A DNA stretch of 64,000 nucleotides from Bacillota bacterium (GTDB lineage: Bacteria; Bacillota; Clostridia; UBA1381). Where the stretch lies: assembly GCA_029007725.1 (NCBI GenBank), contig JAQXIJ010000047.1, forward strand, positions 1 through 64,000. The letters are read 5' to 3'. Shown here piece after piece: positions 2,265 to 28,527 of the stretch. How positions within the stretch are numbered: the first letter of the stretch is position 1; each line of letters begins with the position of its first letter. The notes beneath the pieces were generated by a model that made no database searches, had not been told where the DNA came from, and saw only the letters and a program-made list of their open reading frames with translations. A program made the position numbers and the translations under genes.

Positions 2265-2278
2265 GAGGTGCGATTAAG

Positions 2279-2461: not shown

Positions 2462-2465
2462 TTTT

Positions 2466-3459: not shown

Positions 3460-3487
3460 TTTATCACCCGATAATAATATATGAGCA

Positions 3488-3523
3488 CAAAAAAAAGCTA
3501 TTCCATAAAACTATGGAATAGCT
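3488..3523 (-). terminator. Intrinsic terminator of the fba operon
   Basis: On the minus strand an 11-bp stem (AGCTATTCCAT / ATGGAATAGCT) is followed by a run of T. It starts 13 bases after the fba stop codon and lies before the deacetylase gene. Confidence 0.88.
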
Positions 3524-3536
3524 CGTATTAAAAGCG

Positions 3537-4400: not shown

Positions 4401-4432
4401 AATAAAGTTTCCTCCTTGTTTTATAGTATATA

Positions 4433-5032: not shown

Positions 5033-5035
5033 AAC

Positions 5036-6074: not shown

Positions 6075-7481
6075 ATGATAGATAAAAAAATGTATGAACA
6101 GCTTGCATATAAGCCGAAAAATGTGTATGACTGCATGACACCGGAGCAACGCCGCGAAATGATGGATATGTGTGAAGAATACAGAAAATTTCTTGACGCC
6201 GGAAAGACCGAGCGTGAATGTGTTAAAACTGCTGAGAAAATGGCTAATGAACATGGATTTGTACCGTTTGACAGTGTGGACTCGTTGAAGCCGGGAGATA
6301 AGGTATATATGATAAACAGAAAGAAAAACATTCTGCTTGCGGTAATAGGAGATGGAGATATTACAGAAGGAATCAATATTGTCGGTGCGCATATTGACTC
6401 GCCAAGACTCGATTTAAAGCAGAATCCGCTGTATCAGTCTACCGAAATGGCACTGTTGAAAACCCACTATTACGGCGGAATGAAAAAATACCAGTGGACG
6501 GCACTGCCTCTTGCACTTCACGGAGTTATATATACAAAGGACGGAAACCAGGTAGAGGTTTGTATTGGTGAAAAGGATGACGATCCGGTTTTCTGCGTAA
6601 CGGATCTTTTGCCTCATTTGGCAAAAACTCAGATGGAAAAGAAGCTTTCCGAGGCTATTGAGGGCGAGGCACTGAATATTCTTATCGGTGGAATGGGAAT
6701 AAACGGCAGCGATATAGACGACAAGGTAAAGCTAAATATTCTGAACATATTAAACATTGCTTACGGAATCAAAGAAGAAGACTTCATAAGCGCGGAGCTT
6801 GAGGTAGTTCCAGCATTTAAGGCGAGAAACGTGGGACTCGACAACAGCTTTGTCGGAGCTTACGGTCAGGATGACAGAGTGTGCGCGTTTACATCTCTAA
6901 AAAGCATATTTGACATAGAGGCACCGCACAAAACTGCTCTTTGCCTGCTTGTAGATAAAGAAGAAATAGGTTCGACCGGAAACACAGGAATGCTGTCAAG
7001 ATTCATTGATATGGCAATAGCAGAGCTTATTGAAAAACTGACAGGAAAATGTGATATGCTGATGTTTAACAGGGTTATAAGAAATTCTGCTTGTATGTCC
7101 AGCGATGTAAGTGCGGCTGTTGACCCTAATTATATTGAAGTATTTGAAAAACAGAACTCTTCATATGCCGGTCACGGCATGGCGCTTATGAAGTATACCG
7201 GTTCAAGAGGGAAATCGGGTGCTTCGGACGCTTCGAGTGAATTTGTGCATGAAATTACAACAATTTTGAATAACGATAACGTTATCTGGCAGACCTGCGA
7301 GCTTGGAAAGGTTGACCAAGGCGGCGGCGGAACAATAGCGATGTATATTGCAAACTTGAATATTGACGTTATTGACTGCGGTGTGCCGGTGCTTTCGATG
7401 CACTCGCCATTTGAAGTGACAGCAAAAGGAGATATCTATATGGCATATAAGACTTATATGGCATTCTATCGCGACAGATAA
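6075..7481 (+). CDS. M18 family zinc aminopeptidase
   Basis: 468 residues, close to the bacterial M18 length. These cytosolic di-zinc aminopeptidases release N-terminal, often acidic, residues from peptides. Visible metal and catalytic motifs: VGAHIDSPRLDLKQ (zinc His and following Asp), GAYGQDDRVCAF (bridging Asp), DKEEIGSTG (catalytic Glu and zinc Glu), and SMHSPFEV near the C-terminus (zinc His). GGAAAGGAAG precedes the ATG. It stands alone between its own promoter and a terminator. Confidence 0.93.
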   Translation: MIDKKMYEQLAYKPKNVYDCMTPEQRREMMDMCEEYRKFLDAGKTERECVKTAEKMANEHGFVPFDSVDSLKPGDKVYMINRKKNILLAVIGDGDITEGINIVGAHIDSPRLDLKQNPLYQSTEMALLKTHYYGGMKKYQWTALPLALHGVIYTKDGNQVEVCIGEKDDDPVFCVTDLLPHLAKTQMEKKLSEAIEGEALNILIGGMGINGSDIDDKVKLNILNILNIAYGIKEEDFISAELEVVPAFKARNVGLDNSFVGAYGQDDRVCAFTSLKSIFDIEAPHKTALCLLVDKEEIGSTGNTGMLSRFIDMAIAELIEKLTGKCDMLMFNRVIRNSACMSSDVSAAVDPNYIEVFEKQNSSYAGHGMALMKYTGSRGKSGASDASSEFVHEITTILNNDNVIWQTCELGKVDQGGGGTIAMYIANLNIDVIDCGVPVLSMHSPFEVTAKGDIYMAYKTYMAFYRDR

Positions 7482-7514
7482 ATATTATGCGGTGTATTAA
7501 AAATGCACTGTTTC

Positions 7515-7549
7515 AAATAAAAATACGCTTTTTGCGTATTTTTATTTTG
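7515..7549 (+). terminator. Intrinsic terminator after the M18 gene
   Basis: A 14-bp A/T-rich stem (7515-7528 with 7534-7547), T5 loop, and a short T run. The following stretch 7550-7715 is A/T-rich and shows no gene. Confidence 0.75.
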
Positions 7550-7715
7550 CATAAATGCAGCAATAATGAGGCAAGATCTATGCCGTGGTGATCGATTTTG
7601 TTCCTACAGAGGCAATTGCGATATTAAAACAGTTATAAAAAAACAATAAAAATGCATAAATATACATTATATATTTATAAAAATACACAAAAATATAAAT
7701 ATTTTAGAAAAGCAC

Positions 7716-7744
7716 TTGACAAATATCTTTGTGTGTGATACTAT
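7716..7744 (+). promoter_or_regulatory. Promoter of the pyr operon
   Basis: TTGACA (7716-7721), 17-base spacer and TACTAT (7739-7744). It places the start of transcription near 7751, just before the PyrR-type leader. Confidence 0.75.
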
Positions 7745-7750
7745 AAATAC

Positions 7751-7863
7751 AGTCTTTAAGATTGGTACTGAGATGCCGACAAGATATTGTATTTAATAGG
7801 ATATGGCCTGAAAGACGGGCTATTGCTATATGCAAATCTCTTGTCGTGGCGAGAGATTTTTTT
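7751..7863 (+). promoter_or_regulatory. PyrR-type pyrimidine attenuator (pyr leader)
   Basis: The segment 7755-7783 aligns with the PyrR binding loop of Bacillus pyr leaders: TTTAA, then TTGG closing a loop TACTGAGATG against CCGA, then CAAG, compared with the family pattern of a stem around a TCCAGAGAGG loop. Bases 7778-7784 (GACAAGA) can also pair with TCTTGTC (7838-7845), forming an antiterminator that disrupts the terminator stem AATCTCT (7835-7841) / AGAGATT (7852-7858) with its T7 tail. By analogy, UMP-bound PyrR stabilises the first stem and causes termination. pyrR itself is not in the window. Confidence 0.78.
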
Positions 7864-7950
7864 GTTGTAATTTTTTGCGGAAAAATATGTATAAATTATT
7901 ATTATATAACAATATTAGTTTGTAAGAACACAATGTGAAAGGAAACACTG

Positions 7951-9204
7951 ATGAACTGTTTTTTGAGCGGCGCCTGCGCGTGGATAAACAATGCTTTTGT
8001 AAAAGCCGATATAACAGTTTCGGACGGAAAAATAGCGGCTGTCGGCAAAAAAAATATAAACGGATTCCATAAAATAGACTGCACGGGACTTTATGCTTTC
8101 CCAGGGCTTATTGACGTTCACGTGCATTTGCGTGAACCTGGATTTGAATATAAAGAAACGATTGAAACCGGAACATTGGCTGCCGCAAAGGGAGGTTTTA
8201 CCGCCATTTGTGCAATGCCTAATCTTAATCCCGTTCCGGATTCCGAGGAACACATCAAACGTGAACTTGATGCTATATCAAAAACGGCGAAGATAGGTGT
8301 TTTTCCGTATGCCGCAATTACTGTGGGAGAAAATGGTGAAAAGCTTACCGATATATCGGCTCTGTCAAAAAAAGCGGTTGCATTTTCGGACGACGGACAC
8401 GGTGTGCAGTCGGAGTCTGTCATGCTGTCTGCAATGGCTCTTGCAAAAAAATACGATAAAATCATAGCCGCACATTGTGAGGATAATACCCTACTTAATG
8501 GCGGCTATATTCATATGGGCGAATACGCAAGACAGCATAATCACAAGGGAATATGTTCTGAAAGCGAATGGAGACCGATAAAACGCGATCTTGAACTTGC
8601 AGAAAAAACCGGCTGTAAATACCATGTGTGTCACATTTCGGCAAAGGAAAGCGTGGAACTGATAAGAAATGCAAAAAAGCAAGGTATTGATGTAACCTGC
8701 GAAACAGGACCACACTATCTGGCTTTTTCAGATATGGATTTAAAGGAAGACGGCAGATTCAAGATGAATCCGCCAATTCGCGCAAGAGAGGACAGGCAGG
8801 CGCTTATTGAGGGGATAAAGGACGGAACGATTGACATGATTTCAACCGACCACGCTCCGCATTCAGAAGAGGAAAAATCGCGTGGCTTGAGCGGTAGCTT
8901 AATGGGTGTAGTTGGAATTGAAACAGCTTTTTCTGCGGCATATACCTATCTTGTAAAAACCGGAATTATATCACTTGAAAAGCTGATTGCACTTATGCAT
9001 GACAATCCTATGCGGAGATTTGGAATAGGAAACAATATTTCAGTCGGAAACGAGGCAAACATAACATTGTTCGACCTTGAAAAAAAATATACTGTAAATC
9101 CGAAAAGCTTTGTATCAAAGGGTAAAAGTACGCCGTTTGATGGGATGGAGCTATTTGCAGAATGTAAGATGACGATGTACAAGGGGGAAACGGTATGGGA
9201 ATGA
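7951..9204 (+). CDS. pyrC: Dihydroorotase
   Basis: 417 residues, class I bacterial type. It cyclises N-carbamoyl-L-aspartate to dihydroorotate, step 3 of UMP synthesis. Binuclear zinc motifs: DVHVHLREPG (HxH), FSDDGHG, AAHCEDN, CHIS and TDHAPHS with the catalytic Asp. GAAAGGA precedes the ATG. It is the first gene of the pyr operon, right after the attenuator, and overlaps carA by 10 bases. Confidence 0.96.
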   Translation: MNCFLSGACAWINNAFVKADITVSDGKIAAVGKKNINGFHKIDCTGLYAFPGLIDVHVHLREPGFEYKETIETGTLAAAKGGFTAICAMPNLNPVPDSEEHIKRELDAISKTAKIGVFPYAAITVGENGEKLTDISALSKKAVAFSDDGHGVQSESVMLSAMALAKKYDKIIAAHCEDNTLLNGGYIHMGEYARQHNHKGICSESEWRPIKRDLELAEKTGCKYHVCHISAKESVELIRNAKKQGIDVTCETGPHYLAFSDMDLKEDGRFKMNPPIRAREDRQALIEGIKDGTIDMISTDHAPHSEEEKSRGLSGSLMGVVGIETAFSAAYTYLVKTGIISLEKLIALMHDNPMRRFGIGNNISVGNEANITLFDLEKKYTVNPKSFVSKGKSTPFDGMELFAECKMTMYKGETVWE

Positions 9205-13503: not shown

Positions 13504-14235
13504 ATGAAACAGTCTTATTTCAAGCTTCTGTCGAACAGATGCATTGCAAAAAGTGTATATGAAATGAAACTTTTGGGCGATACGAGCGGCATAATTTTAC
13601 CAGGGCAGTTTGTTAATATAAAAATTGACGGTCTGTTTCTGCGCCGCCCAATTTCAATCTGCGACTATGACGAAAATTCTCTTACAATCATATATAAGGT
13701 TGTTGGAAAGGGCACAAGCACCATGTCTACCATGAGCGAAGGCGCATGGCTCGATTTGCTTGTCGGACTTGGAAACGGCTTTAACATTACTGACAGCGGA
13801 AAAGCACCGCTTGTAATCGGCGGCGGAGTGGGTGTTCCGCCTATGTACAATCTTGCAAAGGAGCTTTCAAAAACCGGTGCAAATGTTACAGCAATACTCG
13901 GCTTTAATGCAAAGGACGAGGTATTTTATAAAGAAAAATTTGAAGAAATCTGCGACAGAGTGTATGTGACGACCGTAGACGGGAGCGTAGGTACAAAAGG
14001 ATTTGTGACAGATGTTATGAAAAATCTTGAATATTCATATTTTTATACCTGCGGTCCGTACCCAATGCTTAAGGCGGTTTATGACACGTCAAAAACAAGC
14101 GGCAGCTTTAGCTTTGAAGAAAAAATGGGTTGTGGCTTCGGTGTCTGTATGGGCTGCAGCTGCAAAACAAAATACGGAAACAAGCGTATTTGCGCCGATG
14201 GCCCCGTTTTGACTAAGGAGGAAATAATATGGTAG
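13504..14235 (+). CDS. pyrK: Dihydroorotate dehydrogenase electron-transfer subunit
   Basis: 243 residues. PyrK carries FAD and a [2Fe-2S] cluster and lets the class 1B PyrD use NAD+. FAD-binding RRPISICDY, the NAD-binding GGGVGVPPMYNLAKEL, and a C-terminal Cys set (CGFGVCMGCSC..ICADGPV) for the cluster are visible. AAAGGAAAGGA precedes the start. It overlaps pyrD by 7 bases, matching its role as partner of the next gene. Confidence 0.95.
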   Translation: MKQSYFKLLSNRCIAKSVYEMKLLGDTSGIILPGQFVNIKIDGLFLRRPISICDYDENSLTIIYKVVGKGTSTMSTMSEGAWLDLLVGLGNGFNITDSGKAPLVIGGGVGVPPMYNLAKELSKTGANVTAILGFNAKDEVFYKEKFEEICDRVYVTTVDGSVGTKGFVTDVMKNLEYSYFYTCGPYPMLKAVYDTSKTSGSFSFEEKMGCGFGVCMGCSCKTKYGNKRICADGPVLTKEEIIW

Positions 14236-15140
14236 ATACAAGGGTTAATTTAAGCGGACTTGAACTTGACAATCCGATTATTCCCGCCAGCGGAACATTC
14301 GGCTACGGTTATGAATTTTCACGGCTTTACGATATAAATATTCTGGGTTCTTTTTCTTTTAAAGGAACTACAAAAGAACCGCGGTTCGGCAATCCTACAC
14401 CAAGAATTGCGGAATGTACATCCGGAATGATTAATTCGGTGGGGGTGCAAAATCCAGGGGTCGACAAGGTTATAAGCGAAGAACTGCCCAAGATGAAGAC
14501 CTTTTTCAAAAAAAAGGTTATAGCAAATATCAGCGGATTTTCGATAGAGGACTATGCCTATACCTGCGAAAAACTCGACACGGAAGAGCAGGTGGGGCTG
14601 ATTGAGGTCAACATAAGCTGCCCAAATGTGCATAACGGCGGTATGAGTTTCGGAGCAGATGCAAAAAATGCTGCTGATGTAACAAAGGCTGTCAAAGCTG
14701 TTACGAAAAAACCTGTATATATAAAGCTTTCACCGAATGTCACTGATATTGCGGAGATTGCAAGAGCGTGTGAGAATGCGGGTGCCGACGGCATTAGCAT
14801 GATAAATACACTTCTAGGAATGAAAATAGATTTAAAGACGAAAAAGCCCGTAATAGCAAATAAAATGGGCGGCTTTTCGGGTGCTGCCATAAAGCCGGTT
14901 GCAGTGCGAATGATATATCAGGTGTATGACGCGGTGAACATTCCCATTATCGGAATGGGCGGAGTTGAAACAGCAGAGGACGTTATTGAGCTGATGCTGG
15001 CTGGAGCGACGGGAGTTTCTGTCGGAGCGGCAAACCTTGTAAATCCGTATGTATGCAAGGATATTATAGAAAATCTTCCGGTGGTTATGAAAAAATACGG
15101 CATTTCCAGTCTAAAAGAAATTATCGGAGGTGCACACTGA
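14229..15140 (+). CDS. pyrD: Dihydroorotate dehydrogenase catalytic subunit, class 1B
   Basis: 303 residues. It oxidises dihydroorotate to orotate with FMN and passes electrons to PyrK. Motifs: PIIPASGTFGYGYE, the active-site Cys region NISCPNVHNGG, SMINTLLGMKID, and the phosphate-binding GMGGVETAEDV and TGVSVG. TAAGGAGG precedes the ATG. It overlaps pyrF by one base (TGATG). Confidence 0.96.
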   Translation: MVDTRVNLSGLELDNPIIPASGTFGYGYEFSRLYDINILGSFSFKGTTKEPRFGNPTPRIAECTSGMINSVGVQNPGVDKVISEELPKMKTFFKKKVIANISGFSIEDYAYTCEKLDTEEQVGLIEVNISCPNVHNGGMSFGADAKNAADVTKAVKAVTKKPVYIKLSPNVTDIAEIARACENAGADGISMINTLLGMKIDLKTKKPVIANKMGGFSGAAIKPVAVRMIYQVYDAVNIPIIGMGGVETAEDVIELMLAGATGVSVGAANLVNPYVCKDIIENLPVVMKKYGISSLKEIIGGAH

Positions 15141-15838
15141 TGGGTAAAGATGTAATTGTAGCCTGTGACTTCAGCAGTAAAGCCGATGTTATGGCATTTT
15201 TGGACAGATTTAGCAGCAGAAAACCGTTTGTAAAAATTGGTATGGAGCTGTTTTATGCCGAGGGTGCAGAAATTGTGCGCGAAATCAAAGCGCGGGGTCA
15301 CAAAATATTTCTTGACTTGAAATTATGCGATATTCCAAACACTGTCAAAAAGTCAATGCACGTGCTTTCGGGATTGGATGTGGATATGTGTAATCTTCAC
15401 GCTTTCGGAACAAAAGCGATGATGGATGCGGCTATGGAGGGACTTACGCGTGAGGACGGTACAAGGCCGATGCTTATTGCCGTAACTCAGCTGACCTCTA
15501 CCAGCGAAGAACGTATGAAAAGTGATTTGCTTATAAACGAACCACTCGAAAAAGTGGTAATGCACTATGCAAAGTGCGCCGCACAGTGCGGTCTTGACGG
15601 AGTGGTATGCTCGCCGCTTGAGGCAAGAAATGTCAAAGTAGTATGCGGTGAAGGATTCATGACGGTAACGCCGGGAGTGCGCTTTGCAGATGATGATGTT
15701 GGTGACCAGGTACGCATAACAACCCCTGCAAAAGCAAAGGAACTCGGTTCGGACTATATAGTTGTTGGACGTCCGATAACTCAGGCGGCTGACCCGGTTG
15801 CCGCATATGAAAGATGTATAAGAGAATTTGTTGATTAA
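15140..15838 (+). CDS. pyrF: Orotidine-5'-phosphate decarboxylase
   Basis: 232 residues, class I PyrF. It converts OMP to UMP. The catalytic DLKLCDIPNT (Asp/Lys/Asp), MTVTPGVRF and VVGRPITQA phosphate-binding motif are present. A longer frame reaches back to 15053, but ATG 15140 is chosen because CGGAGGTG lies before it and the protein then begins with the family's VIVACDFS. 139 bases without a clear signal separate it from pyrE. Confidence 0.95.
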   Translation: MGKDVIVACDFSSKADVMAFLDRFSSRKPFVKIGMELFYAEGAEIVREIKARGHKIFLDLKLCDIPNTVKKSMHVLSGLDVDMCNLHAFGTKAMMDAAMEGLTREDGTRPMLIAVTQLTSTSEERMKSDLLINEPLEKVVMHYAKCAAQCGLDGVVCSPLEARNVKVVCGEGFMTVTPGVRFADDDVGDQVRITTPAKAKELGSDYIVVGRPITQAADPVAAYERCIREFVD

Positions 15839-15977
15839 AACGTAAACGGAGATAATAGGCAAAACAGACCGCATAGTCCTTTTGTGCGGGATGAAAAGCC
15901 TTATCATAACAAAATTGCGCATTGTTTTGTTCTTAATTTGTACCGCCGTTGGCGGAGAAACGGAGATTGCTATTGCC

Positions 15978-16616
15978 ATGGAAAAACTTATTGCAAAGGA
16001 TTTATTATCAATAGGCGCAGTGTTTTTAAAGCCGGAGGATCCATTTACTTGGGCAAGCGGTATAAAAAGCCCCATTTACTGTGACAACAGGCTGACGCTG
16101 ACAGCGCCTAATGTAAGAAACGATGTTGAAAACGGACTTGCTGAAGTAATTAAAAAGTACTATCCAGACGCAGATGTTCTGATGGGAACATCGACAGCAG
16201 GAATTGCTCATGCGGCTATAACTGCGCACATTTTGGGTATGCCTATGGGCTACGTCCGATCCGGTGCAAAGGATCACGGCAGACAAAACCAGATTGAGGG
16301 AAGGCTTGAAAGGGGACAAAAGGTTGTTGTTATTGAGGATCTCATTTCGACCGGCGGAAGCGTGCTGGAAGTTGTGGACGTTTTGAGGAAGGCTGGCGCA
16401 GAGGTTCTGGGCATTGCGTCAATTTTCACATATGGTATGAAAAAGGGAATTGAGCGCCTTTCTGCTGCAAACGTAAAAAATATCAGTCTTTCAAATTTTG
16501 ATGCGGTAATTGAAGTTGCCGCCGAAGATGGCTATATTAAAAAAACCGATATCGCGCGTCTTATCGCGTTCAGAAACAATCCGAGCGACGAAAGCTGGAT
16601 CGGAGGTAAAAACTGA
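15978..16616 (+). CDS. pyrE: Orotate phosphoribosyltransferase
   Basis: 212 residues. It transfers phosphoribose from PRPP to orotate. [16 protein letters not shown] at the N-terminus, [17 protein letters not shown] (catalytic loop), and the PRPP motif [13 protein letters not shown] identify it. A longer frame opens at 15882, but those 32 extra residues are hydrophobic and not family-like, so ATG 15978 is used; the nearest purine-rich stretch, CGGAG, is about 11 bases upstream. The stop overlaps pyrB by one base. Confidence 0.95.
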
Positions 16617-17530
16617 TGCGAAGTCTGATTAATATAACCGATTTGTCGGTCGAAGAAATCGAAGAGCTTATTGCGGTTGCGAACGACATCATAGATAACC
16701 CCAAAAAATACCGAGAAAAATGCAGATATAAAAAAATTGCGACGCTGTTTTATGAACCGTCAACCAGAACGCGTTTGAGCTTTGAGGCAGCCATGCTGGA
16801 GTTGGGCGGAAGCGTGCTTGGTTTTTCACAAGCGAGCAGCTCGTCGGTTTCAAAGGGAGAGAGCGTTGCTGATACTGTCAAAACCGTTTCATGTTATGCC
16901 GACATAATCGCAATGCGGCACCCAAAAGAGGGTGCGCCGCAGGTCGCTAAAATGAATGCCGGTATTCCGGTAATCAATGCCGGTGACGGAGGACATAACC
17001 ATCCGACGCAGACACTTGCAGATTTGCTTACAATTTATCGAGAAAAGGGCAGACTGAATAACTTTACCATCGGCTTTTGCGGAGATTTAAAGTTTGGCAG
17101 AACAGTGCATTCTCTGATAACGGCGCTGTCACGCTATACCGGAATCAAAATTGTGTTAATTTCGCCGGAGGAACTGAAGCTTCCAAGCTATGTAAAAAAG
17201 GATATTTTGCAAAAGAACAATATCGAATATGTGCAAACTACCGATTTGGAAGCAGTAATGCCGGAGCTTGATATTCTGTACATGACTCGAGTGCAGCAGG
17301 AAAGATTTTTTAACGAAGAGGATTATTTGCGGCTTAAGGACAGCTATATTTTAACCCCGGAAAAGCTGAAAAACGCAAAGGTGGATTTGTGTATTATGCA
17401 TCCGCTGCCGCGTGTGAATGAAATTGCACCGTCCATCGATAATGACAGCCGCGCGTGTTATTTTAAACAGGTCAAAAACGGAAAATTCATGCGTATGGCG
17501 CTTATATTAAAGCTTTTGGAGGTGCAGTGA
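16616..17530 (+). CDS. pyrB: Aspartate carbamoyltransferase catalytic chain
   Basis: 304 residues. It condenses carbamoyl phosphate and aspartate. The carbamoyl-phosphate motif [13 protein letters not shown], the 80s-loop equivalent [30 protein letters not shown] and HPLPRVNEI are all present. It follows pyrE with a one-base overlap and is followed by the regulatory chain PyrI, so the enzyme is probably the allosteric catalytic-regulatory holoenzyme. Confidence 0.97.
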
Positions 17531-17946
17531 TGAAGATAGATTCTATAACAAATGGCATTGTTATCGATCACATTTCCGCCGGAAACGGCATGAAGCTGTA
17601 TCAGCTTTTAAACCTTGATGCGCTTGACTGCTCGGTTGCGATTATAAAAAATGCTCCGAGCAAAAAGACCGGAAAAAAGGATATAATAAAAATCGACTCG
17701 GATTTCGACGTGGATATGGATATTCTAGGTTACGTTGACCCGGGTGCGACAATCAGCACAATTAAAAACGGAAAAATTGCTGAAAAAAACAAGATTGATT
17801 TGCCGGAAAAGCTTACAAATGTAATCTTCTGCAAAAATCCGAGATGCATAACGACAACAGAGCAGGGAATAGATCATATTTTCAAGCTGACCGACATAGA
17901 AAACCGCGTCTATCGCTGTATTTATTGCGAAACAAAGGCAAAATAG
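17530..17946 (+). CDS. pyrI: Aspartate carbamoyltransferase regulatory chain
   Basis: 138 residues. An N-terminal nucleotide-binding domain (GIVIDHISAGNGMKLYQLL) and a C-terminal zinc domain with four Cys (CKNPRC...YRCIYC) are seen. PyrI gives ATCase its CTP/ATP response in the family. The ATG at 17530 is preferred to the GTG at 17527 because TTTTGGAGG is then 8 bases upstream and the pyrB stop overlaps by one base. With the PyrR-type leader this gives two levels of pyrimidine control. metY begins 39 bases later with no terminator between. Confidence 0.94.
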   Translation: MKIDSITNGIVIDHISAGNGMKLYQLLNLDALDCSVAIIKNAPSKKTGKKDIIKIDSDFDVDMDILGYVDPGATISTIKNGKIAEKNKIDLPEKLTNVIFCKNPRCITTTEQGIDHIFKLTDIENRVYRCIYCETKAK

Positions 17947-17985
17947 TAAATTTTGTCTTGATTTTTTTGAAGGGAGCTGTCTGAA

Positions 17986-19263
17986 ATGGGAAATTACAGT
18001 ATAGAAACAAATTGTGTTCAAGGAGGATATAAGCCGAAAAACGGCGAGCCCAGAATCCTGCCTATATATCAGAGCACTACATATAAATATGATTCGTCGG
18101 AGCATCTGGGCGATCTTTTTGACCTGAAGGTGCCGGGACATATGTATTCGAGGATTTCCAACCCGACACTGGAATGTGTTGAGAATAAAATTGCACAGCT
18201 TGAGGGCGGTGTCGGAGCAACGCTTACGACATCGGGACAGGCGGCAAATTTACTTGCAATTTTAAACATAACCTCATGCGGACAGAATTTCGTCAGCCTT
18301 TCATCAATTTACGGAGGAACGATAAATCTGTTTGCTGTAACCTTAAAGCGCATGGGCATAGAGGTAAGGTTTGCCACCCCAGAAATGACCGATGAGGAAG
18401 TTGATGCACTGTTTGATGAAAACACGCGACTGATGTTCGGCGAAACCATAGCAAACCCGGCTCTAAAGGTACTTGATATTGAAAGATATGCAAAGCTTGC
18501 GCACAGACACGGTGTTCCGCTTTTGGTAGACAATACTTTTGCCACACCAATTTTATGCAGACCGATTGAGTTCGGAGCAGATATTGTCATTCATTCTACA
18601 ACAAAATATATGGACGGTCATGCGGCGGTTGTCGGAGGAGTGATAGTCGACAGCGGAAAATTTGACTGGACAAAAGGTAAATTTCCTGAAATGACAGAGC
18701 CTGATGAATCATATCACGGAATTTCTTATACCGAAAGCTTCAAAAATGCCGCATATATCACAAAGGTCAGAGTACAGCTTATCCGTGACTTTGGAGTTGC
18801 ACCAAGCGCAATTAATGCTTTTTTGCTGAATTTGGGACTAGAAACTCTTCATGTCAGAATGGAAAGGCACTGTGAAAATGCTTTAAAGGTCGCAAAATTT
18901 CTTGAATCAAGTGACAAAATTACATGGGTAAACTATCCAATGCTTGAATCGAGCGCGGAGCGCAAGCTTGCGGAAAAATATATGCCCGGGGGTTGCTGCG
19001 GCGTTATATCATTTGGTATTAAGGGCGGCAGAAGCGCTGCGGTTAAATTTATGGACAGCTTAAAGCTTGCGGCAATTGTAGTTCATGTTGCCGATGCAAG
19101 AACGAGCGTGCTGCACCCTGCAAGCACAACACATCGGCAACTGACGGACGAGCAGCTTGTTGACGCTGGAATAAGCGCAGACTTAATCAGAATGTCGGTT
19201 GGCATCGAAAATGCAGATGATATTATAAGCGATATAAAACAAGCGCTAAATGAGGTGGAATAA
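17986..19263 (+). CDS. metY: O-acetylhomoserine sulfhydrylase (aminocarboxypropyltransferase)
   Basis: 425 residues, the length of MetY-type Cys/Met-metabolism PLP enzymes. It makes homocysteine from O-acetylhomoserine and sulfide. YSRISNPT near the N-terminus, VDNTFATP, and the PLP-lysine motif [10 protein letters not shown] are visible. GAAGGGAG precedes the ATG. It overlaps metA by one base. The pair follows pyrI closely and seems to share the pyr transcript; no SAM riboswitch or T-box is seen in the 39-base gap. Confidence 0.93.
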
Positions 19264-20180
19264 TGCCTATTAAAATTCCTAACGACCTGCCTGCAACGAA
19301 AACGCTGCACAAGGAAAACATTTTTGTCATAACAGAAAAGCGCGCATTGACGCAGGATATAAGACCGCTTAAAATTCTGCTTCTGAATCTTATGCCTACA
19401 AAAATCCGCACAGAAACACAGTTTTCGCGTCTTTTAGGAAACACTCCGCTTCAGGTAGAACTCGAATTTTTGCAGACAGCAACGCATAAGGCAACACATA
19501 CGGATGAACAGCACATGATATCGTTTTATAAAACCTTTGATGAAATAAAAAATAATAAGTATGACGGTATGGTTATAACCGGCGCACCAGTAGAGCAGAT
19601 GGAGTTTGAAGAAGTCAACTATTGGCAGGAACTTTGCGAAATTATGGAATGGAGCAAAACACATGTGACGAGCACCTTTCATATATGTTGGGCAGCACAG
19701 GCGGGTCTTTACTATCACTACGGCATAAAAAAGCATGCAATGGACAAAAAGCTGTTCGGCATTTTTGAGCATAAGGTAGAATATAAAAAATCAATACTCT
19801 TCCGAGGTTTTGATGATGTTTTCATGGCTCCGCATTCGCGTTATACAACGGTTTTGAGAGAGGATATAGAAAATGTTCCGGAGCTTAAAATTATGGCTTC
19901 TTCAAAGGAAGCTGGTGTATATGTAGTAATGACGAACAGGGGCAGACAGATTTTTGTCACCGGTCATCCTGAATATGACGCTGATACGCTTAAAGATGAA
20001 TATTTCCGTGATAAAAACAACGGACTTGATATTGATGTGCCAAAAAATTATTTTCCCAATGACAATGATACAAAAAAGCCGATTGTTTCTTGGCGCAGCC
20101 ATGCAAACCTGTTATATTCAAATTGGCTAAACTACTTTGTATATCAGACAACACCATATGATATAGATAACATACATTAA
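19263..20180 (+). CDS. metA: Homoserine O-acetyltransferase (MetA type)
   Basis: 305 residues of the MetA family, often named homoserine O-succinyltransferase. The nucleophile Cys142 (FHICWAAQ) and the C-terminal VTGHPEYD are present. Position 111 is Glu ([11 protein letters not shown]). In studied MetA proteins Glu at 111 goes with acetyl-CoA use and Gly with succinyl-CoA, so acetylation is predicted. This agrees with the neighbouring O-acetylhomoserine sulfhydrylase. It is the last gene before a strong terminator. Confidence 0.92.
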
Positions 20181-20808: not shown

Positions 20809-20837
20809 TTGACATATGACATATTGTGTGATATCAT
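20809..20837 (+). promoter_or_regulatory. Promoter of the first T-box unit
   Basis: TTGACA (20809-20814), 17-base spacer, TATCAT (20832-20837). The T-box leader begins about 15-20 bases downstream. Confidence 0.75.
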
Positions 20838-20849
20838 AATAAAAATTGA

Positions 20850-21119
20850 ATTCATAAAAGCTATGATGAAGACGGTCGAAACATTGCGTTTTTAGAGAGT
20901 TGACGGTTGCTGCGAGTCAATAACAATGTGTTTCAATGACTTATCCCTTCTGAGCTGAAGATGTGAAAATTACAGTAATGTCTTTCGTGATTGCTACGTT
21001 AGTGCATAGGGCTTGATAGAGTCTGAAGTGGTGTTGTATTTTGCTACAGCACAATTTGAGTGGTACCGCGGATTAGTAATCTAACCCGTCTCAAAGGTTT
21101 TCTTTGAGACGGGTTTTTT
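20850..21119 (+). ncRNA. T-box leader 1 (tRNA-sensing riboswitch)
   Basis: The T-box sequence GAGTGGTACCGCGG lies at 21058-21071. It is followed by a terminator with a 14-bp stem (21083-21096 with 21102-21115) and T6. Stem I features are present: a GATGAAG / CTTCTGAGC kink-turn-like base, AGAGAG, and the GGTTGCTGCGAG distal loop. The specifier codon register is uncertain: counting as in B. subtilis thrS and glyQS leaders (codon, one base, five bases, GAGC) gives AUC (Ile) at 20943-20945; CUU followed by A at 20940-20942 (Leu) is an alternative. Uncharged cognate tRNA would favour antitermination and expression of the ligase gene. Confidence 0.93.
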
Positions 21120-21140: not shown

Positions 21141-23405
21141 ATGAATACAACCGAAGAAAAATTATTTGAAATTGCAGAAAGAATCAAGGAAATGCGCGAA
21201 ATTCTCGGTTATACAGTGGAGGATATGGCAAAGAGTACAGAGGTTTCCGTTGAAGAGTATAAAAAGCTTGAAAGCGGCACGGTAGACTTTCCGTTTACAT
21301 TTATCCATAAGTGTGCACTTGCGCTCAATCTTGAAATTACTGATATCCTTGAGGGTATAAGTGCAAATTTGTCGTCATATAATCTTACACGAAAAGGAAG
21401 AGGACAGGAAACGGCAAAAGAAGACGGCATAAGCATTGCAAATCTTGCACCGATGTTCAAACATAAAATTGCAGAGCCATATTACGTTACTTACGATTAC
21501 TCCGAAAAATTGCAGAATCAGCCGATTCATTTGACTACGCATAAGGGTCAGGAATTTGATATAATTTTAAGCGGAAAACTCAAGATTCAGATAGGAGAGC
21601 ATGCGGTAGTGCTGAATGAGGGAGACAGTATTTACTACAACAGTTCAACACCGCACGGAATGATTGCGGTCGGTGGCGAAAAATGTGTGTTCTGTGCAGT
21701 TGTGCTTCCGGGTGAAGGCAAGGCTGACGAAAAAGAGATAAAGGATACAATAGTTTCGGCACGTCAGCCGGGAAAACTGCTCATCAACAAGTTTATCAAG
21801 ACAAAGGAAGACGACACAGGCGCGCTGCAGGCAGTATCGTATGAAAATGAAGAAAAATTCAACTTTGCATTTGATGTTGTTGATGAAATCGCAAGAAAGT
21901 ATCCTGATAAGCTTGCAATGGTTCACGTTGACAACAACAAAAACGAAAAACGCTTCACATTTAAGGATATGAAAGATGCGTCAAGCCAAACGGCAAATTA
22001 CTTCAAGTCGCTCGGAATACAGCGCGGCGACAGGGTTATGCTTGTTCTAAAGCGAAACTACCAGTTCTGGTTTTCAATCCTTGCACTGCATAAGCTTGGC
22101 GCAATTGCAATTCCTGCAACCAATATGCTTCAGGAGCATGACTATACCTACAGATTTAACGCTGCCGGCGTAAAGGCAATCGTCTGTACTGCAGACGGCG
22201 ATGTAACACACCAGGTTGAGCTGGCAGAAAAGGATTCTCCGACGCTTAAAATAAAGGTTGTTGCAAACGGCTCGCGCGAGGGCTGGCATGACTTTAATGC
22301 AGAATACGGACTGTTCAGTAGAAAGTTTGTAAGGGAAGAGGACGCACCGTGCGGAAGTGACCCGATGCTTATGTTTTTTACCTCTGGTACAACAGGATAC
22401 CCGAAAATTGCAGAGCATAACTACAAATATCCTCTCGGACACTTTATTACCGCAAAATACTGGCACTGCGTTGACCCGACCGGTATCCACTTCACAATCG
22501 CCGATACCGGCTGGGGAAAAGCTCTCTGGGGAAAACTCTACGGTCAGTGGATGTGCGAGGCTGCTGTGTTTGTATATGACTTTGACAGATTCCATGCTTC
22601 GGATATTCTGCCTATGTTCAAAAAGTACAATATCACAACCTTTTGTGCGCCTCCAACAATGTACCGTATGCTGATAAAAGAGGATTTGTCAAACTATGAT
22701 TTAAGCTCATTAAAGCATGTTACAATTGCAGGTGAGGCACTTAATCCGGAAGTGTTCAAGCAGTTTAAAAAAGCAACGGGACTTTCTCTGATGGAGGGTT
22801 TCGGTCAGACCGAAACTACACTTACCATTGCGAACCTTGTCGGTATGACACCGAAGCCTGGCTCAATGGGTAAGCCGGTTCCGTCATATGATATAGATAT
22901 TGTGGACGCGGAAGGAAAATCGTGTGATATCGGTGAATCAGGCGAAATTGTAGTAAGAGTGGATAAAGAAATTCCATGCGGTTTGTTCATGGGATATTAC
23001 CTTAACGAAGAAAAGACAAAAGAGGTTATGCACGACGGACTTTATCACACGGGCGATGTTGCATGGCGCGATGAAGATGGCTACTTTTGGTATGTTGGTA
23101 GAACCGATGATGTAATCAAATCCTCAGGCTACCGTATCGGACCTTTTGAAATCGAAAATGTTATCATGGAACTGCCATATGTCCTGGAATGCGGAGTTTC
23201 GGCAGAGCCTGACGAAATCAGAGGTCAGGTTGTAAAAGCAAGCATCGTTCTGACAAAGGACAAACAGCCGTCCGATGAGCTTAAAAAGGAAATTCAGGAT
23301 TATGTTAAGCATAAGACTGCACCATACAAATATCCGAGAATTGTTGAGTTCAGAACAGAGTTGCCAAAGACTATAAGCGGAAAAATTATGCGTAATAAGC
23401 TATAA
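21141..23405 (+). CDS. HTH-cupin-AMP-dependent acyl-CoA ligase fusion
   Basis: 754 residues in three parts. Residues about 5-70 form an XRE-type helix-turn-helix (ERIKEMREILGYTVEDMAKS). About 110-190 form a cupin (HLTTHKGQEFDIILSG; DSIYYNSSTPHGMIAV). From about 225 runs an adenylate-forming acyl-CoA synthetase with FFTSGTTGYPK (about 411-421), EGFGQTETT (about 551), [32 protein letters not shown] and the C-terminal catalytic-Lys motif PKTISGKIMRNKL. It should activate a free carboxylate to acyl-CoA with ATP; the best match in style is the medium-chain/aryl acyl-CoA synthetase group. AAAAGGAGTG precedes the ATG. Control by a T-box suggests use in amino-acid synthesis. Whether the HTH binds DNA is unknown. 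Confidence 0.88.
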   Translation: MNTTEEKLFEIAERIKEMREILGYTVEDMAKSTEVSVEEYKKLESGTVDFPFTFIHKCALALNLEITDILEGISANLSSYNLTRKGRGQETAKEDGISIANLAPMFKHKIAEPYYVTYDYSEKLQNQPIHLTTHKGQEFDIILSGKLKIQIGEHAVVLNEGDSIYYNSSTPHGMIAVGGEKCVFCAVVLPGEGKADEKEIKDTIVSARQPGKLLINKFIKTKEDDTGALQAVSYENEEKFNFAFDVVDEIARKYPDKLAMVHVDNNKNEKRFTFKDMKDASSQTANYFKSLGIQRGDRVMLVLKRNYQFWFSILALHKLGAIAIPATNMLQEHDYTYRFNAAGVKAIVCTADGDVTHQVELAEKDSPTLKIKVVANGSREGWHDFNAEYGLFSRKFVREEDAPCGSDPMLMFFTSGTTGYPKIAEHNYKYPLGHFITAKYWHCVDPTGIHFTIADTGWGKALWGKLYGQWMCEAAVFVYDFDRFHASDILPMFKKYNITTFCAPPTMYRMLIKEDLSNYDLSSLKHVTIAGEALNPEVFKQFKKATGLSLMEGFGQTETTLTIANLVGMTPKPGSMGKPVPSYDIDIVDAEGKSCDIGESGEIVVRVDKEIPCGLFMGYYLNEEKTKEVMHDGLYHTGDVAWRDEDGYFWYVGRTDDVIKSSGYRIGPFEIENVIMELPYVLECGVSAEPDEIRGQVVKASIVLTKDKQPSDELKKEIQDYVKHKTAPYKYPRIVEFRTELPKTISGKIMRNKL

Positions 23406-23420: not shown

Positions 23421-23449
23421 TTGACATATATACAAATATATGGTAAAAT
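23421..23449 (+). promoter_or_regulatory. Promoter of the second T-box unit
   Basis: TTGACA (23421-23426), exactly 17 bases, TAAAAT (23444-23449). It lies 16 bases after the ligase stop codon, with no terminator between. Confidence 0.82.
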
Positions 23450-23462
23450 CAATAAAAATATT

Positions 23463-23747
23463 TAAAGGCGATGAAGGAGAGTGCTTCCGGGGTAGGCTTT
23501 CGGAGAGAGTTGGCGGTCGGTGCGAGCCAATTAAAGCTGATGCGGTTGTCTGTAGCTCCCGAGCTGGAAGGAAGAAAGCACTTTTGTGCAAGTAGAGCCT
23601 TCTCGTGATTGCTGCGTTAATGTATAGGGCTTGATGGAGTCTGAAGTGGTATTGCTTTTGTAATACAATTTGAGTGGTACCGCGGGTTATAATTTGTAAT
23701 TATTGCTCGTCACAAGGATTTTACTATATCTTTGCGACGGGCTTTTT
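23463..23747 (+). ncRNA. T-box leader 2 (tRNA-sensing riboswitch)
   Basis: Built like leader 1: GATGAAGGAGAGTG on the 5' side of stem I (AGTG resembles the loop-E AGTA), AGAGAG, a GGTCGGTGCGAG distal loop, CTCCCGAGC at the base, the T-box GAGTGGTACCGCGG at 23672-23685, and a terminator stem (23705-23719 with 23728-23742) followed by T5. The thrS/glyQS register gives GUA (Val) at 23552-23554 followed by G; UGU followed by A is an alternative. The leader appears intact although the ligase copy behind it is broken, so it probably still controls the oxidoreductase genes downstream. Confidence 0.93.
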
Positions 23748-23778
23748 GTTTACCCCAATACAGTTTGAAGGTATTATT

Positions 23779-25269
23779 TTGGGAAATTCATTAACAGGTC
23801 TTGATTTAAAGATCAAAGAGGTAGCTACAAGAATACGAGAACTGTCCGAAATTGAAGGTATGTCAACCGAAAAAATGGCGCAGCTTACTGATGTTTCCGA
23901 GCCGCTTTATGTAAAATGTGCATACAGTAGCGATGCTGAGCATAAAGATATTGAGCTGACAACGCATGCCGGCCAGGAATTTGATATCGTAATAAGCGGA
24001 ACGCTCAAGGTTCAGATTGGATCTCATAAAGAAATCCTGCACGAGGGAGATGCGGTATATTATGACAGCTCAACGCCGCATGGCATGATTGCACTTTACG
24101 GTAAGGACTGCGAATTTTATGCAATAGTTCTTTCGGCGGAGGGTGAAAAGCCGGATACAAACGCAACACCGGATCTGGAAAATCCGACCGAAAACAAGCC
24201 GCATCAGCCGTACAGGAGAATATATCGCAACTTCATTCATCCTAAAGAGGATGAAAACGGTGCGCTTATAGCGGTTGACTTTGAAAATGAGGATAAGTTC
24301 AATTTTGCCTTTGACGTTGTTGACGCACTGGCGGATAAAAGACCGGATAAGCTCGCGATGCTTCACCTTAATATAAACAAAAACTAGCGTCGCTTTACAT
24401 TTATGGATATGAAACACGAATCAAAAAGGACGGCAAACTATTTTAAGTTGCTAGGCATTAAAAAGGGCGCCAGGGTAATGCTTGTTCTGAAGCGCCACTA
24501 TCAGTTCTGGTTCTCGATTTTTGCGTTGCATAAGCTGGGCGCAATAGCGATTCCTGCGACAAATCAGCATCAGGAGCATGACTATACCTACAGATTTAAT
24601 GCTGCCGGCGTGAGCGCAATCGTTTGTACGGCAGACGGAGATGTGGATCATCAAGTTGGGCTTGCCGAGAAAGATTCCGAAACATTAGCGACAAAGATTC
24701 TTGTCGGCGGAACGCATAAAATCGGCTCAATTGGCAAGCCGGTTCCGACCTATGACGTTGATATTGTCGATCCTAACGGAAAGAGCGTCGGCATCGGAAA
24801 AAGCGGCGAGATTGTTATCAGAACCTCTGAAAAAAACGCCGTGCGGTCTCTTTAAGGGCTATTACCGTGATGAGGAAAGACAAAAGAGGCATGGCACGAC
24901 GGACTGTATCAAACAGGTGACGTTGCAATGCGCGATGAGGACGGATTTTACTGGTATGTAGGCAGGATCGACGACGTTATCAAGTCATCGGGATACAGAA
25001 TCGGACCCTTTGAAATCGAAAATGTCATTATGGAGCTTCCGTATGTTCTGGAATGCGGAGTTTCTGCGGCACCGGACGAGGTGCGCGGTCAGGTGGTAAA
25101 GGCAAGCATCGTGCTTACAAAGGGAACAGAAGGAACAGAAGAACTTAAAAAGGAAATTCAGAATTATGTAAAAGAGCATACCGCTCCTTATAAATATCAG
25201 CGCATTGTCGTATTCAAGGACGAACTGCCCAAAACAACCCGCGAAAAGATTATAAGGGCGAAGCTCTAA
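23779..25269 (+). pseudogene. Decayed second copy of the HTH-cupin-acyl-CoA ligase
   Basis: The gene is homologous to the one at 21141 along its length but broken. A TTG at 23779 is the only plausible start. Relative to the intact copy, about 75 residues are missing between the HTH and cupin; a TAG stop occurs at 24385 (NINKN-stop against NNKNEKRF); about 190 residues including the SGTTG ATP motif and the GQTETT motif are deleted near 24720; and two frameshifts follow near 24830-24890. The C-terminal part (24928-25269) is still well conserved, but the final Lys motif reads [12 protein letters not shown]. It cannot make a full ligase. The cupin part alone could still be translated. Confidence 0.9.
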
Positions 25270-25279: not shown

Positions 25280-25945
25280 ATGAAACATATTACACTTTTT
25301 GCTGGGCATTATGGAAGCGGAAAGACTAACATTGCCGTAAGTGTGGCAAAGTATTTGAAAAAGCAGGGTTTTGATACGGCTGTAGTAGATCTCGATATTG
25401 TAAATCCGTATTTTCGCACCAAGGACAGTGAGGATGAATTTAAAAAGCTTGGGATTCAGTTTGTGTGTTCGGAATATGCTAATACAAATCTTGATGCCCC
25501 CGCTTTGCCAAAGGAAATTTATAGCGTGCTGACCGATGAAAATGTAAAAATTATCATGGATATCGGCGGTGATGACCGCGGAGCTGTTGCTCTCGGACGC
25601 TATACACCGTCAATTCTTGAAGAAAACGACTATGATATGATGTTTGTGGCAAATTGCTACAGACCGCTTACAACAACTCCGGAAGAAGCATTTGAAGTAA
25701 TGCGCGAAATTGAAGCTGCATGCCAAATTCCGTTTACGGCGATTGTTAATAACTCAAACATCGGCGAGGAAACCACAGCTGCCGACGTTATTGCATCGTT
25801 TGAATATATAGAAAAGTTATCGAAGCTGAGCGGTTTGCCGGTTAAAATGACGACCGCTACTAAAAAAATATGCGAGGAACTGAAAAAAAAAGCGTTGGAT
25901 GTGTTTGAAATAGAACTGCAAAAAAAATATTACAGTATTAAGTAA
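25280..25945 (+). CDS. MinD/ParA-like P-loop ATPase
   Basis: 221 residues. Walker A GHYGSGKTN (about 9-17), DLDIVNPYFR (about 38-47, the switch I region of deviant-Walker ATPases) and the Walker B-like IIMDIGGDDRG (about 93-103) are visible. AAAGGAG lies 6 bases before the ATG. It sits between the ligase pseudogene and the ferredoxin subunit and is probably co-transcribed with the oxidoreductase. Relatives of this fold deliver metal clusters or activate enzymes, so a maturation or activation role for the oxidoreductase or ligase is a guess; no specific function is known to me. Confidence 0.8.
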   Translation: MKHITLFAGHYGSGKTNIAVSVAKYLKKQGFDTAVVDLDIVNPYFRTKDSEDEFKKLGIQFVCSEYANTNLDAPALPKEIYSVLTDENVKIIMDIGGDDRGAVALGRYTPSILEENDYDMMFVANCYRPLTTTPEEAFEVMREIEAACQIPFTAIVNNSNIGEETTAADVIASFEYIEKLSKLSGLPVKMTTATKKICEELKKKALDVFEIELQKKYYSIK

Positions 25946-26174: not shown

Positions 26175-27239
26175 ATGACAGATAAAGTATTGATGAAAGG
26201 TAACGAAGCAATTGCAGAAGCCGCCATAAAGGCAGGCTGCCGTCACTATTTCGGATACCCTATCACACCTCAGACCGAAATCGCGGCATATATGGCGAAA
26301 AGAATGCCTAAAATCGGAGGAACATTCTTGCAGGCAGAGAGTGAGCTTGCCGCAATAAACATGGTTTACGGCGTTTCTTCAACAGGAAAAAGGGTTATGA
26401 CTTCTTCTTCAAGTCCAGGAATTGCTCTGAAGAGTGAAGGACTTTCGTATCTTGCCGGCGCTGATCTGCCTGCATTTGTCGTAAATGTTCAAAGAGGAGG
26501 CCCGGGACTGGGGGGTATTCAGCCGTCACAGTCCGACTATTTTCAGGCGACAAAAGCCGGAGGTCACGGTGATTTCAGAATGATTGTTCTTGCTCCGGCA
26601 TCTGTACAGGAAATGGCTGATCTTACAATAAAAGGATTTGAGCTTGCCGATAAATACAGAATGACGTCAATGATTCTTGCAGACGGTACAATGGGTCAGA
26701 TGATGGAGCCTGTTGAAATTAAGGACAACACAGAAATAAAGACCGTTGACAAGCCGTGGGCGGTAACAGGAACAGGATGCAAGCGAGAACATAATATTAT
26801 CAATTCGCTTTATCTGAAGCCTGATGAACTGGAAAAAGGCAACTTTGAACGATTTGAAAAATACAAAAAGGTCGAAGAAAACGAAACTATGTACGAAGAA
26901 TTTATGATGGACGATGCTGAGATTTGCGTAGTTGCTTTCGGAATTGCGGCGCGAGTTTCACAAAATGCCATCGTTGAGGCAAGAGAACAGGGAATTAAGG
27001 CAGGAATGATAAGACCGATTACACTCTGGCCATTTCCGAAAAAGCCTCTTTTGGCAGCTGCTGACAGAGTTAAAAAGTTTATTTCCGTCGAGCTGTCAAT
27101 GGGACAGATGATTGAAGACATTGAGCTTGCCATTCGCTGTAAAAAGCCGGTTGAGCTTTGCAACAGAACCGGAGGCATGATCCCGTCACCAGAAGAAGTT
27201 CTTGCAAAAATTAAGGAAGCAAACGGAGGTAATAACTGA
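26175..27239 (+). CDS. vorB: 2-oxoacid:ferredoxin oxidoreductase alpha subunit (VorB-like)
   Basis: 354 residues. The alpha subunit contributes the pyrimidine-binding domain of the TPP enzyme: GYPITPQTEIAAYMAKR, FLQAESELAAINMVYG and TSSSSPGIALKSEG at the N-terminus, and the C-terminal domain II (AFGIAARVSQNAI). The type resembles 3-methyl-2-oxobutanoate (VOR) and 2-oxoglutarate (KOR) oxidoreductases; sequence alone does not decide the substrate. The reaction, 2-oxoacid + CoA + Fd(ox) to acyl-CoA + CO2 + Fd(red), is reversible. It overlaps the beta gene by one base. Confidence 0.9.
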   Translation: MTDKVLMKGNEAIAEAAIKAGCRHYFGYPITPQTEIAAYMAKRMPKIGGTFLQAESELAAINMVYGVSSTGKRVMTSSSSPGIALKSEGLSYLAGADLPAFVVNVQRGGPGLGGIQPSQSDYFQATKAGGHGDFRMIVLAPASVQEMADLTIKGFELADKYRMTSMILADGTMGQMMEPVEIKDNTEIKTVDKPWAVTGTGCKREHNIINSLYLKPDELEKGNFERFEKYKKVEENETMYEEFMMDDAEICVVAFGIAARVSQNAIVEAREQGIKAGMIRPITLWPFPKKPLLAAADRVKKFISVELSMGQMIEDIELAIRCKKPVELCNRTGGMIPSPEEVLAKIKEANGGNN

Positions 27240-27988
27240 TGATAGTATTTGAAAAACCGAAATCATTAACAGACGCTCCACTGCACTATTGCCCGGGCTG
27301 TACCCACGGTATTGTACACAGACTGGTCGCACAGGCGATAGACGAGCTTGGCATCGAAGGCAGAACAATCGGTATAGCTCCCGTAGGCTGCTCTGTTATG
27401 GCATATGACTACTTTGCATGCGATATGGTGGAGGCATCACACGGACGTGCACCTGCTGTTGCAACCGGTATAAAAAGGGCTGACCCATCCAAGATTGTAT
27501 TTACATATCAAGGTGACGGTGACCTTGCTTCAATCGGTACTGCCGAAACGGTTCACTCTGCAACAAGAAACGAAAATATAACGGTAATTTTTATAAACAA
27601 CGCAATTTACGGAATGACAGGCGGTCAGATGGCACCGACATCCCTTCCGGGACAGGTAACCCAAACCTCACCTTACGGCAGAGATCCAAAGCTTTGCGGT
27701 TATCCGGTAAAGGTTTGTGAAATGCTTGCACAGCTTGAGGGCCCCGAATATCTTGAACGAGTTGCCGTAAATAATGTTAAAAATATCAAAAAAGCACAGG
27801 CTGCAATTAAAAAGGCTTTTGAAAATCAGATAAACAACAAGGGCTTTTCGCTTGTTGAGGTTATTTCTTCATGCCCGACAAATTGGGGAATGACTCCACA
27901 GGAAGCACTTAAGTGGATTGATGACAACATGATTCCTTACTATCCTTTAGGCGTTTATAAGGACAGAAGCAATGAGGAGGAGAAATAA
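27239..27988 (+). CDS. 2-oxoacid:ferredoxin oxidoreductase beta subunit (TPP-binding)
   Basis: 249 residues. It begins with HYCPGCTHGIVHR (cluster/TPP region) and contains the TPP-Mg motif TYQGDGDLASIG...FINNAIYGMTGGQ (about 79-122). It binds the diphosphate of TPP and decarboxylates, or in reverse carboxylates, the 2-oxoacid/acyl-CoA pair. One-base overlaps with both neighbours show strict operon structure. Confidence 0.92.
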   Translation: MIVFEKPKSLTDAPLHYCPGCTHGIVHRLVAQAIDELGIEGRTIGIAPVGCSVMAYDYFACDMVEASHGRAPAVATGIKRADPSKIVFTYQGDGDLASIGTAETVHSATRNENITVIFINNAIYGMTGGQMAPTSLPGQVTQTSPYGRDPKLCGYPVKVCEMLAQLEGPEYLERVAVNNVKNIKKAQAAIKKAFENQINNKGFSLVEVISSCPTNWGMTPQEALKWIDDNMIPYYPLGVYKDRSNEEEK

Positions 27989-28527
27989 TGGGTACATTAA
28001 ATATTTTAATCGCAGGCTTCGGCGGTCAGGGAGTTCTTTTTGCCGGAAAATGTCTTGCATATAAAGGTCTGATAGAGAATAAGCAGGTCAGCTGGCTTCC
28101 GTCCTATGGTCCTGAAATGCGCGGCGGAACGGCAAACTGCAGTGTAATTTTGAGCGATACCCCTGTCGGTTCGCCTATTGTTTCAAACCCAAACGTGCTT
28201 GTTGCAATGAATCTTCCGTCACTTGACAAATACGAAGACGCGGCTGTTTCGGGAGCTAAGGTTTTTGTTGATTCAACGCTTATAAGCAGGAATGTAAAAA
28301 GAACCGACGTAGACGCGTTTTATATTCCTGCAACCAAGATGGCTTCCGATATCGGAGCTCCAACACTTGCAAATATGATAATCATCGGCAAGCTCATAAA
28401 GGAAACAAGCGCCGTTGATTTTGACACGATAGAAGAGGGACTGAAAAATGTTATTCCCCCTAGAAAAGCCGATATGCTTGAGATCAATCTGAAAGCACTT
28501 AAAAATGGCTACGAATATAAGGAATAA
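27988..28527 (+). CDS. 2-oxoacid:ferredoxin oxidoreductase gamma subunit
   Basis: 179 residues. The GFGGQGVLFAGKCLA motif at about 10-24 and SWLPSYGPEMRGGTANC (about 40-56) mark the gamma subunit of pyruvate/ketoisovalerate oxidoreductases, which forms the CoA-binding interface. GAGGAGGAG precedes the ATG within the end of the beta gene. Last gene of the T-box-linked operon; a terminator follows 18 bases after the stop. Confidence 0.92.
   Translation: MGTLNILIAGFGGQGVLFAGKCLAYKGLIENKQVSWLPSYGPEMRGGTANCSVILSDTPVGSPIVSNPNVLVAMNLPSLDKYEDAAVSGAKVFVDSTLISRNVKRTDVDAFYIPATKMASDIGAPTLANMIIIGKLIKETSAVDFDTIEEGLKNVIPPRKADMLEINLKALKNGYEYKE

Follow-up and report, generated by a model that had tools for sequence, protein, structure and literature searches.

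The window, that is, the whole stretch of 64,000 nucleotides that was analysed, carries two T-box leaders, each followed by an acyl-CoA ligase gene, and a group of genes for a predicted 2-oxoisovalerate oxidoreductase (VOR). The genome from which it derives is a draft assembly, 97.6% complete with 1.15% contamination. The first leader consists of the following parts.

20809..20837, forward strand: promoter-like site of leader 1 (TTGACA-17-TATCAT), 11 of 12 matches in a consensus scan, a pattern match only
20854..21096, forward strand: T-box leader 1, Rfam RF00230, 115.8 bits against a gathering score of 93
20868..20871, forward strand: GAAG, 5' strand of the stem I helix closing the specifier loop, pairing with 20947-20950; covariation in 123 leaders
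20943..20945, forward strand: specifier codon AUC (Ile), as read by comparison with relatives
20946..20946, forward strand: C following the codon; the 79 automatically placed Ile-class leaders have A (43), C (31) or G (5) at this place
20947..20950, forward strand: CUUC, 3' strand of the closing helix, with U20951 and the K-turn GAGC coming next; covariation
21061..21064, forward strand: UGGU of the antiterminator bulge, for A73-CCA; read from the sequence
21083..21115, forward strand: intrinsic terminator, 15-pair stem with a T run; folding z-score -6.2

The second leader is built from corresponding parts.

23421..23449, forward strand: promoter-like site of leader 2 (TTGACA-17-TAAAAT), 11 of 12 matches in a consensus scan
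23462..23717, forward strand: T-box leader 2, RF00230, 80 bits, E-value 6.6e-18 in its genome
23476..23479, forward strand: GGAG, 5' strand of the closing helix, pairing with 23556-23559 (CUCC); covariation in 123 leaders
23552..23554, forward strand: specifier codon GUA (Val), as read by comparison with relatives
23556..23559, forward strand: CUCC, 3' strand of the closing helix, with C23560 and GAGC coming next; covariation
23675..23678, forward strand: UGGU of the antiterminator bulge, for A73-CCA; read from the sequence
23704..23748, forward strand: terminator hairpin with a T run; folding z-score -5.7

Leader 2 scores below the gathering threshold of 93, yet every part of a T-box is present in it, including the promoter-like site, the stem I helix and motifs, the Val codon, the UGGU bulge and the terminator hairpin. 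The T-run hairpins of both leaders represent intrinsic terminators that would compete with the antiterminator. The genes controlled by the two leaders are listed below.

21141..23405, forward strand: HTH-cupin-AMP-dependent acyl-CoA ligase, 754 amino acids, intact (Pfam HTH_19, Cupin_2, AMP-binding); predicted 2-methylbutyrate-CoA ligase
23674..25269, forward strand: second ligase, a pseudogene interrupted by an in-frame stop (TAG, 24385-24387), lacking the segment that corresponds to residues about 379-560 and frameshifted after it
25280..25945, forward strand: P-loop NTPase with a weak CbiA match, conserved between the ligase and vorB in nearly all loci
26175..27239, forward strand: VorB, 2-oxoisovalerate (3-methyl-2-oxobutanoate) oxidoreductase alpha subunit; NF005507, 551 bits, cut-off 399
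27239..27988, forward strand: Vor TPP-binding (beta) subunit, PF02775; PorB_KorB family below its cut-off
27988..28527, forward strand: Vor gamma subunit, PF01558; NF006323 below its cut-off

Among the NCBIfam-type models no family was found above its cut-off for the beta and gamma subunits; both are encoded alongside VorB, which exceeds its own cut-off, and VOR activity is predicted for the three. The order T-box (AUC), ligase, T-box (GUA or GUC), ligase, NTPase, vorB, vorA, vorC recurs, by comparison, in dozens of loci. Upstream of leader 1 (14229-20180) lie the pyrimidine genes pyrD, F, E, B and I, as judged from their translations, directly followed by genes for an O-acetylhomoserine sulfhydrylase and MetA (homoserine O-acetyltransferase, above cut-off), and a ribosomal protein L10 leader (RF00557, 55.5 bits, above the gathering score) occupies positions 609-727 of the window.

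Stem I register and specifier codons

In the thrS and glyQS leaders of Bacillus subtilis the specifier codon is followed by one base, a five-base helix and GAGC. The order in leader 1 is AUC (20943-20945), C20946, CUUCU (20947-20951) and GAGC (20952-20955), and in leader 2 GUA (23552-23554), G23555, CUCCC (23556-23560) and GAGC (23561-23564). Folding of stem I as single sequences gave z-scores of -0.35 and +1.90 for the two leaders, and related leaders were needed instead. A ligase set was assembled from 70 genomes of the same family and 80 named contigs, mostly of uncultured gut and rumen Clostridia, T-box motifs were sought upstream of the ligases, and the register of codon, one base, helix and GAGC was applied to them.

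Automatic placement in the related leaders that precede the same kind of ligase gave 79 AUC, 43 GUA and 4 GUC, and no other triplet. Six more leaders, whose K-turn or helix differs in sequence, were placed by eye, two as AUC (L045, L117) and four as GUC (L074, L086, L090, L095). The resulting 132 leaders comprise 81 of the Ile class, all with AUC, and 51 of the Val class, with GUA in 43 and GUC in 8, and have no exceptions. The three codon columns are invariant in the 79 automatically placed Ile-class leaders, where C or U almost always stands before the codon, while in the Val class the third codon base is A or C, a synonymous alternation. Four standard pairs of the closing helix are formed in 122 of the 123 related leaders (mean 102 and maximum 108 in 2000 shuffles), as GAAG:CUUC, GGAG:CUCC, GAGG:CCUC, GAAA:UUUC or GGGG:CCCC; conservation of these helix columns is partly built in, as the search patterns demanded purines in the 5' strand and pyrimidines in the 3' strand, whereas the codon columns were left free and their conservation is beyond chance. 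The covarying four-pair helix begins one base past the codon and thereby defines where the specifier loop ends. The initial annotation had proposed AUC and GUA as specifiers on the Bacillus register, and both codons are borne out by these relatives. The codon, the single base and GAGC of that register hold, but only four positions of the helix form standard pairs (GAAG:CUUC in leader 1, GGAG:CUCC in leader 2), not five; the fifth is a mismatch, U.U and A.C respectively.

The same register was read in other leaders of the same genome, where it returned the expected amino acids: AAC-A-CCCGG-GAGC (Asn) for asnB, ACC-A-CUUUG-GAGU (Thr) for thrS and UUC-C-UUUCG-GAGC (Phe) for pheS. A leuA leader in the same assembly reads CUC-A-CUUCC-GAGC (Leu), a control that was used cautiously since its 8-kb contig may be foreign, asnB, thrS and pheS being safer; no LeuA of this type was found in eight relatives, and the leaders of the LeuA-type genes of relatives read CUC-A or CUC-G. 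The discriminator bases that were read are A73 in tRNA-Val(UAC), U73 in tRNA-Cys, G73 or U73 in tRNA-Ser and U73 in tRNA-Thr. The bulge of the thrS leader is UGGA, matching the U73 of tRNA-Thr, and UGGU in both leaders of the window is complementary to A73, as checked for tRNA-Val. A tRNA-Ile(GAU) gene was not found among the tRNAs read from the draft assembly, which do not include every tRNA hit.

It is exceedingly improbable that the specifiers are other codons, namely Leu (CUU) or Ser (UCN) in leader 1 and Cys (UGU) in leader 2. Shifted frames give mixed amino acids in the related leaders, with the sole exception of the +1 frame of Ile-class leaders, where UCN is constant because AUC is followed by A, C or G. 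That frame, however, would leave no base between the codon and the helix and would turn the Leu codon of the leuA leader (CUC-A) into Ser. In leader 1 the initial annotation had found CUU-A to fit the rule of a purine after the codon better than AUC, which is followed by C. The triplet before AUC, however, varies in relatives (CCC, CCU, CUU, CAU and others, i.e. Pro, Leu, His or Thr), and the C ceases to be an objection because the pheS leader tolerates C at this position, as do 31 of the 79 Ile-class leaders. UGU, which had also been allowed for leader 2 (as UGU-A), occurs in most of its relatives but is destroyed in those with G-GUA, A-GUA or G-GUC. The Cys and Ser readings are excluded further because UGGU demands A73, which neither tRNA-Cys nor tRNA-Ser carries.

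Ligases and their codon classes

The best NCBIfam match of the first ligase is MbcS (NF047394), to which it is related at 446.7 bits, below the equivalog cut-off of 850. Its best match among solved structures is 3etc of Methanosarcina acetivorans (677 bits), over the whole ligase part. The second, Val-controlled ligase is broken in the window though its T-box is kept, and is intact in related genomes. In a tree of 127 downstream ligases (FastTree, local support) the Ile and Val classes are split by one branch with a support of 100, and the codon class changes once on the tree as against 38 times in shuffles.

Eight alignment columns differ between the two ligase classes with more than 90% conservation within each, seven of them in the HTH-cupin part. 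The catalytic domain holds a single fixed class difference, at residue 459 (Gly in Ile-class ligases, Ala in Val-class ligases). This residue aligns with Val310 of the E. coli acetyl-CoA synthetase (Acs) and is Gly in 3etc. Val310 belongs to the acetyl pocket, as judged from the Salmonella enzyme. A natural reading is that Gly459 would provide a larger pocket for a five-carbon acid and Ala459 a smaller one for a four-carbon acid. The enzyme of structure 3etc, MacsMa, prefers 2-methylbutyrate as substrate (PMC10455477). The branched-chain substrate class that had been suggested for the ligase and the oxidoreductase from the codons is supported by this closest solved structure and by the score of VorB above its curated cut-off.

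Proposed supply of isoleucine and valine in the carriers

Searches for the canonical pathway in the nine genomes of the genus recovered IlvC in none and IlvD in none (0/9 each; these are metagenome assemblies, in which single absences can be gaps), nor any acetolactate synthase (IlvB) over the cut-off. The same searches recovered IlvC in 47 and IlvD in 51 of the 70 family genomes, and both in 14 of 14 control genomes. The branched-chain aminotransferase IlvE_II (TIGR01123) is present above its cut-off. By this comparison the genus appears to be devoid of the IlvB-IlvC-IlvD route and to retain the final transamination.

Among 48 further genomes carrying the operon, IlvC is absent in 43 and IlvD in 38, which represents a strong trend only, as kinship makes the genomes non-independent and no completeness is given for the 48. 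Fisher tests of the ligase against loss of IlvC or IlvD gave p of about 1e-6, values that depend on kinship and are descriptive only. Five carriers have IlvC, and these possess a full-length LeuA besides IlvD; the operon is thus not a replacement in every case. TIGR00970 was considered as a completeness control for the 48 carriers and found unsuitable, as many have only a divergent, weakly scoring LeuA-type gene. At three loci of genomes that lack IlvC this gene is preceded by a CUC (Leu) T-box (L043 17534, L045 2251, L049 17576); its product is HMGL-like and far below the LeuA equivalog cut-offs, with a LeuA dimerisation domain in the complete L045 gene. Leucine may be made there from VOR-derived 2-oxoisovalerate.

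By comparison, leader 1 is a T-box with the specifier for tRNA-Ile (AUC) and leader 2 one with that for tRNA-Val (GUA), and the operon very likely makes isoleucine and valine from branched-chain acids in place of IlvB-IlvC-IlvD. During a shortage of isoleucine or valine the matching uncharged tRNA would pair with the specifier and the UGGU bulge, stabilise the antiterminator and allow transcription into the ligase and vor genes. The ligases would activate 2-methylbutyrate in the Ile branch and isobutyrate in the Val branch to their CoA thioesters, which VOR with reduced ferredoxin would carboxylate to 3-methyl-2-oxovalerate and 2-oxoisovalerate, and the branched-chain aminotransferase would convert these two 2-oxoacids to isoleucine and valine. 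As the second ligase is broken in the organism of the window, the first would have to serve both acids there or valine would come from outside; the vor genes would still be switchable from either leader.

The same specifiers might accompany a different use of the enzymes, in which the ligase and VOR serve the synthesis of branched-chain fatty acids for membrane lipids or the fermentation of amino acids. VOR enzymes also work in the oxidative direction, in peptide fermenters. MbcS of Staphylococcus aureus, moreover, feeds 2-methylbutyryl-CoA and isobutyryl-CoA into lipid synthesis (PMC10026030). Induction by uncharged tRNA, however, suits the supply of amino acids and not their breakdown, the loss of IlvC and IlvD with IlvE kept points to a need for 2-oxoacids, and vor would be superfluous in an operon for lipid synthesis; such a use is considered unlikely. 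There is similarly little likelihood that both leaders are decaying relics in this genome, as might be suspected from the broken second ligase and the 80 bits of leader 2. Leader 1 and its ligase are intact, leader 2 has lost none of its parts, and intact vor genes follow it.

Extended to the other carriers, the biosynthetic reading of the operon suggests that many gut and rumen Clostridia have probably replaced the Ile/Val pathway by a tRNA-gated capture of branched-chain fatty acids, with tandem T-boxes, a dedicated ligase for each (Gly for 2-methylbutyrate, Ala for isobutyrate) and a shared VOR. As the T-box codon names an amino acid, it provides the probable direction, synthesis, and the probable acid for two generically annotated ligases and the VOR. 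If this is true, the carriers rely on protein-fermenting neighbours to excrete these acids, and the acid taken by each ligase can be read from the codon. It would then be possible to predict which of the uncultured gut species have to obtain 2-methylbutyrate and isobutyrate from their neighbours, which would help the design of growth media.

A T-box was also observed at another locus (L171, G000:C61:4000-18000, reverse strand), where it lies (about 5.5-5.8 kb) before an acyl-CoA ligase (3822-5462) that is followed by genes at 2070-3803, 1497-2066 and 167-1468 for IorA (TIGR03336, above cut-off), IorB and a PaaK-like ligase. UAC (Tyr) is the probable specifier, as UGGU fits A73 and an ACG (Thr) reading does not, and the locus resembles an aromatic version of the branched-chain operon; leaders of this type were found only at L171 and L178. 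At 6961-8712 the same locus encodes a 583-residue protein with an HMGL-like N-terminus joined to an AMP-binding domain, adjoining IlvE.

Comparison with known systems

The two leaders share with the K-turn/AG bulge/apical-loop T-boxes (RF00230; glyQS and thrS of B. subtilis) the stem I K-turn, the specifier loop, the UGGN bulge, the terminator, the AGAGA and GGUUG-type apical motifs and the order of codon, one base, helix and GAGC. Unlike in glyQS and thrS, two T-boxes stand in tandem here, Ile and then Val, within one ligase and VOR operon; C often follows the Ile codon, and the closing helix has four pairs and a mismatch.

MacsMa, the best structure match of the first ligase, shares with it Gly at the position of Acs Val310, but the ligase described here has an N-terminal HTH and cupin and is placed under a T-box. 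MbcS of S. aureus activates both 2-methylbutyrate and isobutyrate (PMC10026030). It is the best family match and serves lipid synthesis, whereas the present ligase stays below its equivalog cut-off.

That rumen and gut bacteria can grow on branched-chain acids in place of amino acids has been recognised, through labelling studies, since the 1960s. A description of the present regulon was not found in the open-access literature searched, outside the scope of which lie the T-box surveys PMC2271356 and PMC2650889, and an earlier mention is possible. Robinson and Allison, as cited in PMC2812497, reported in 1969 that rumen anaerobes make isoleucine from 2-methylbutyrate. The proposed anaerobic carboxylation of 2-methylbutyrate to isoleucine is shared with the reductive carboxylation of such acids that is known from rumen anaerobes and methanogens; to that biochemical work the present comparison adds a conserved operon, which carries RNA control specific to each amino acid.
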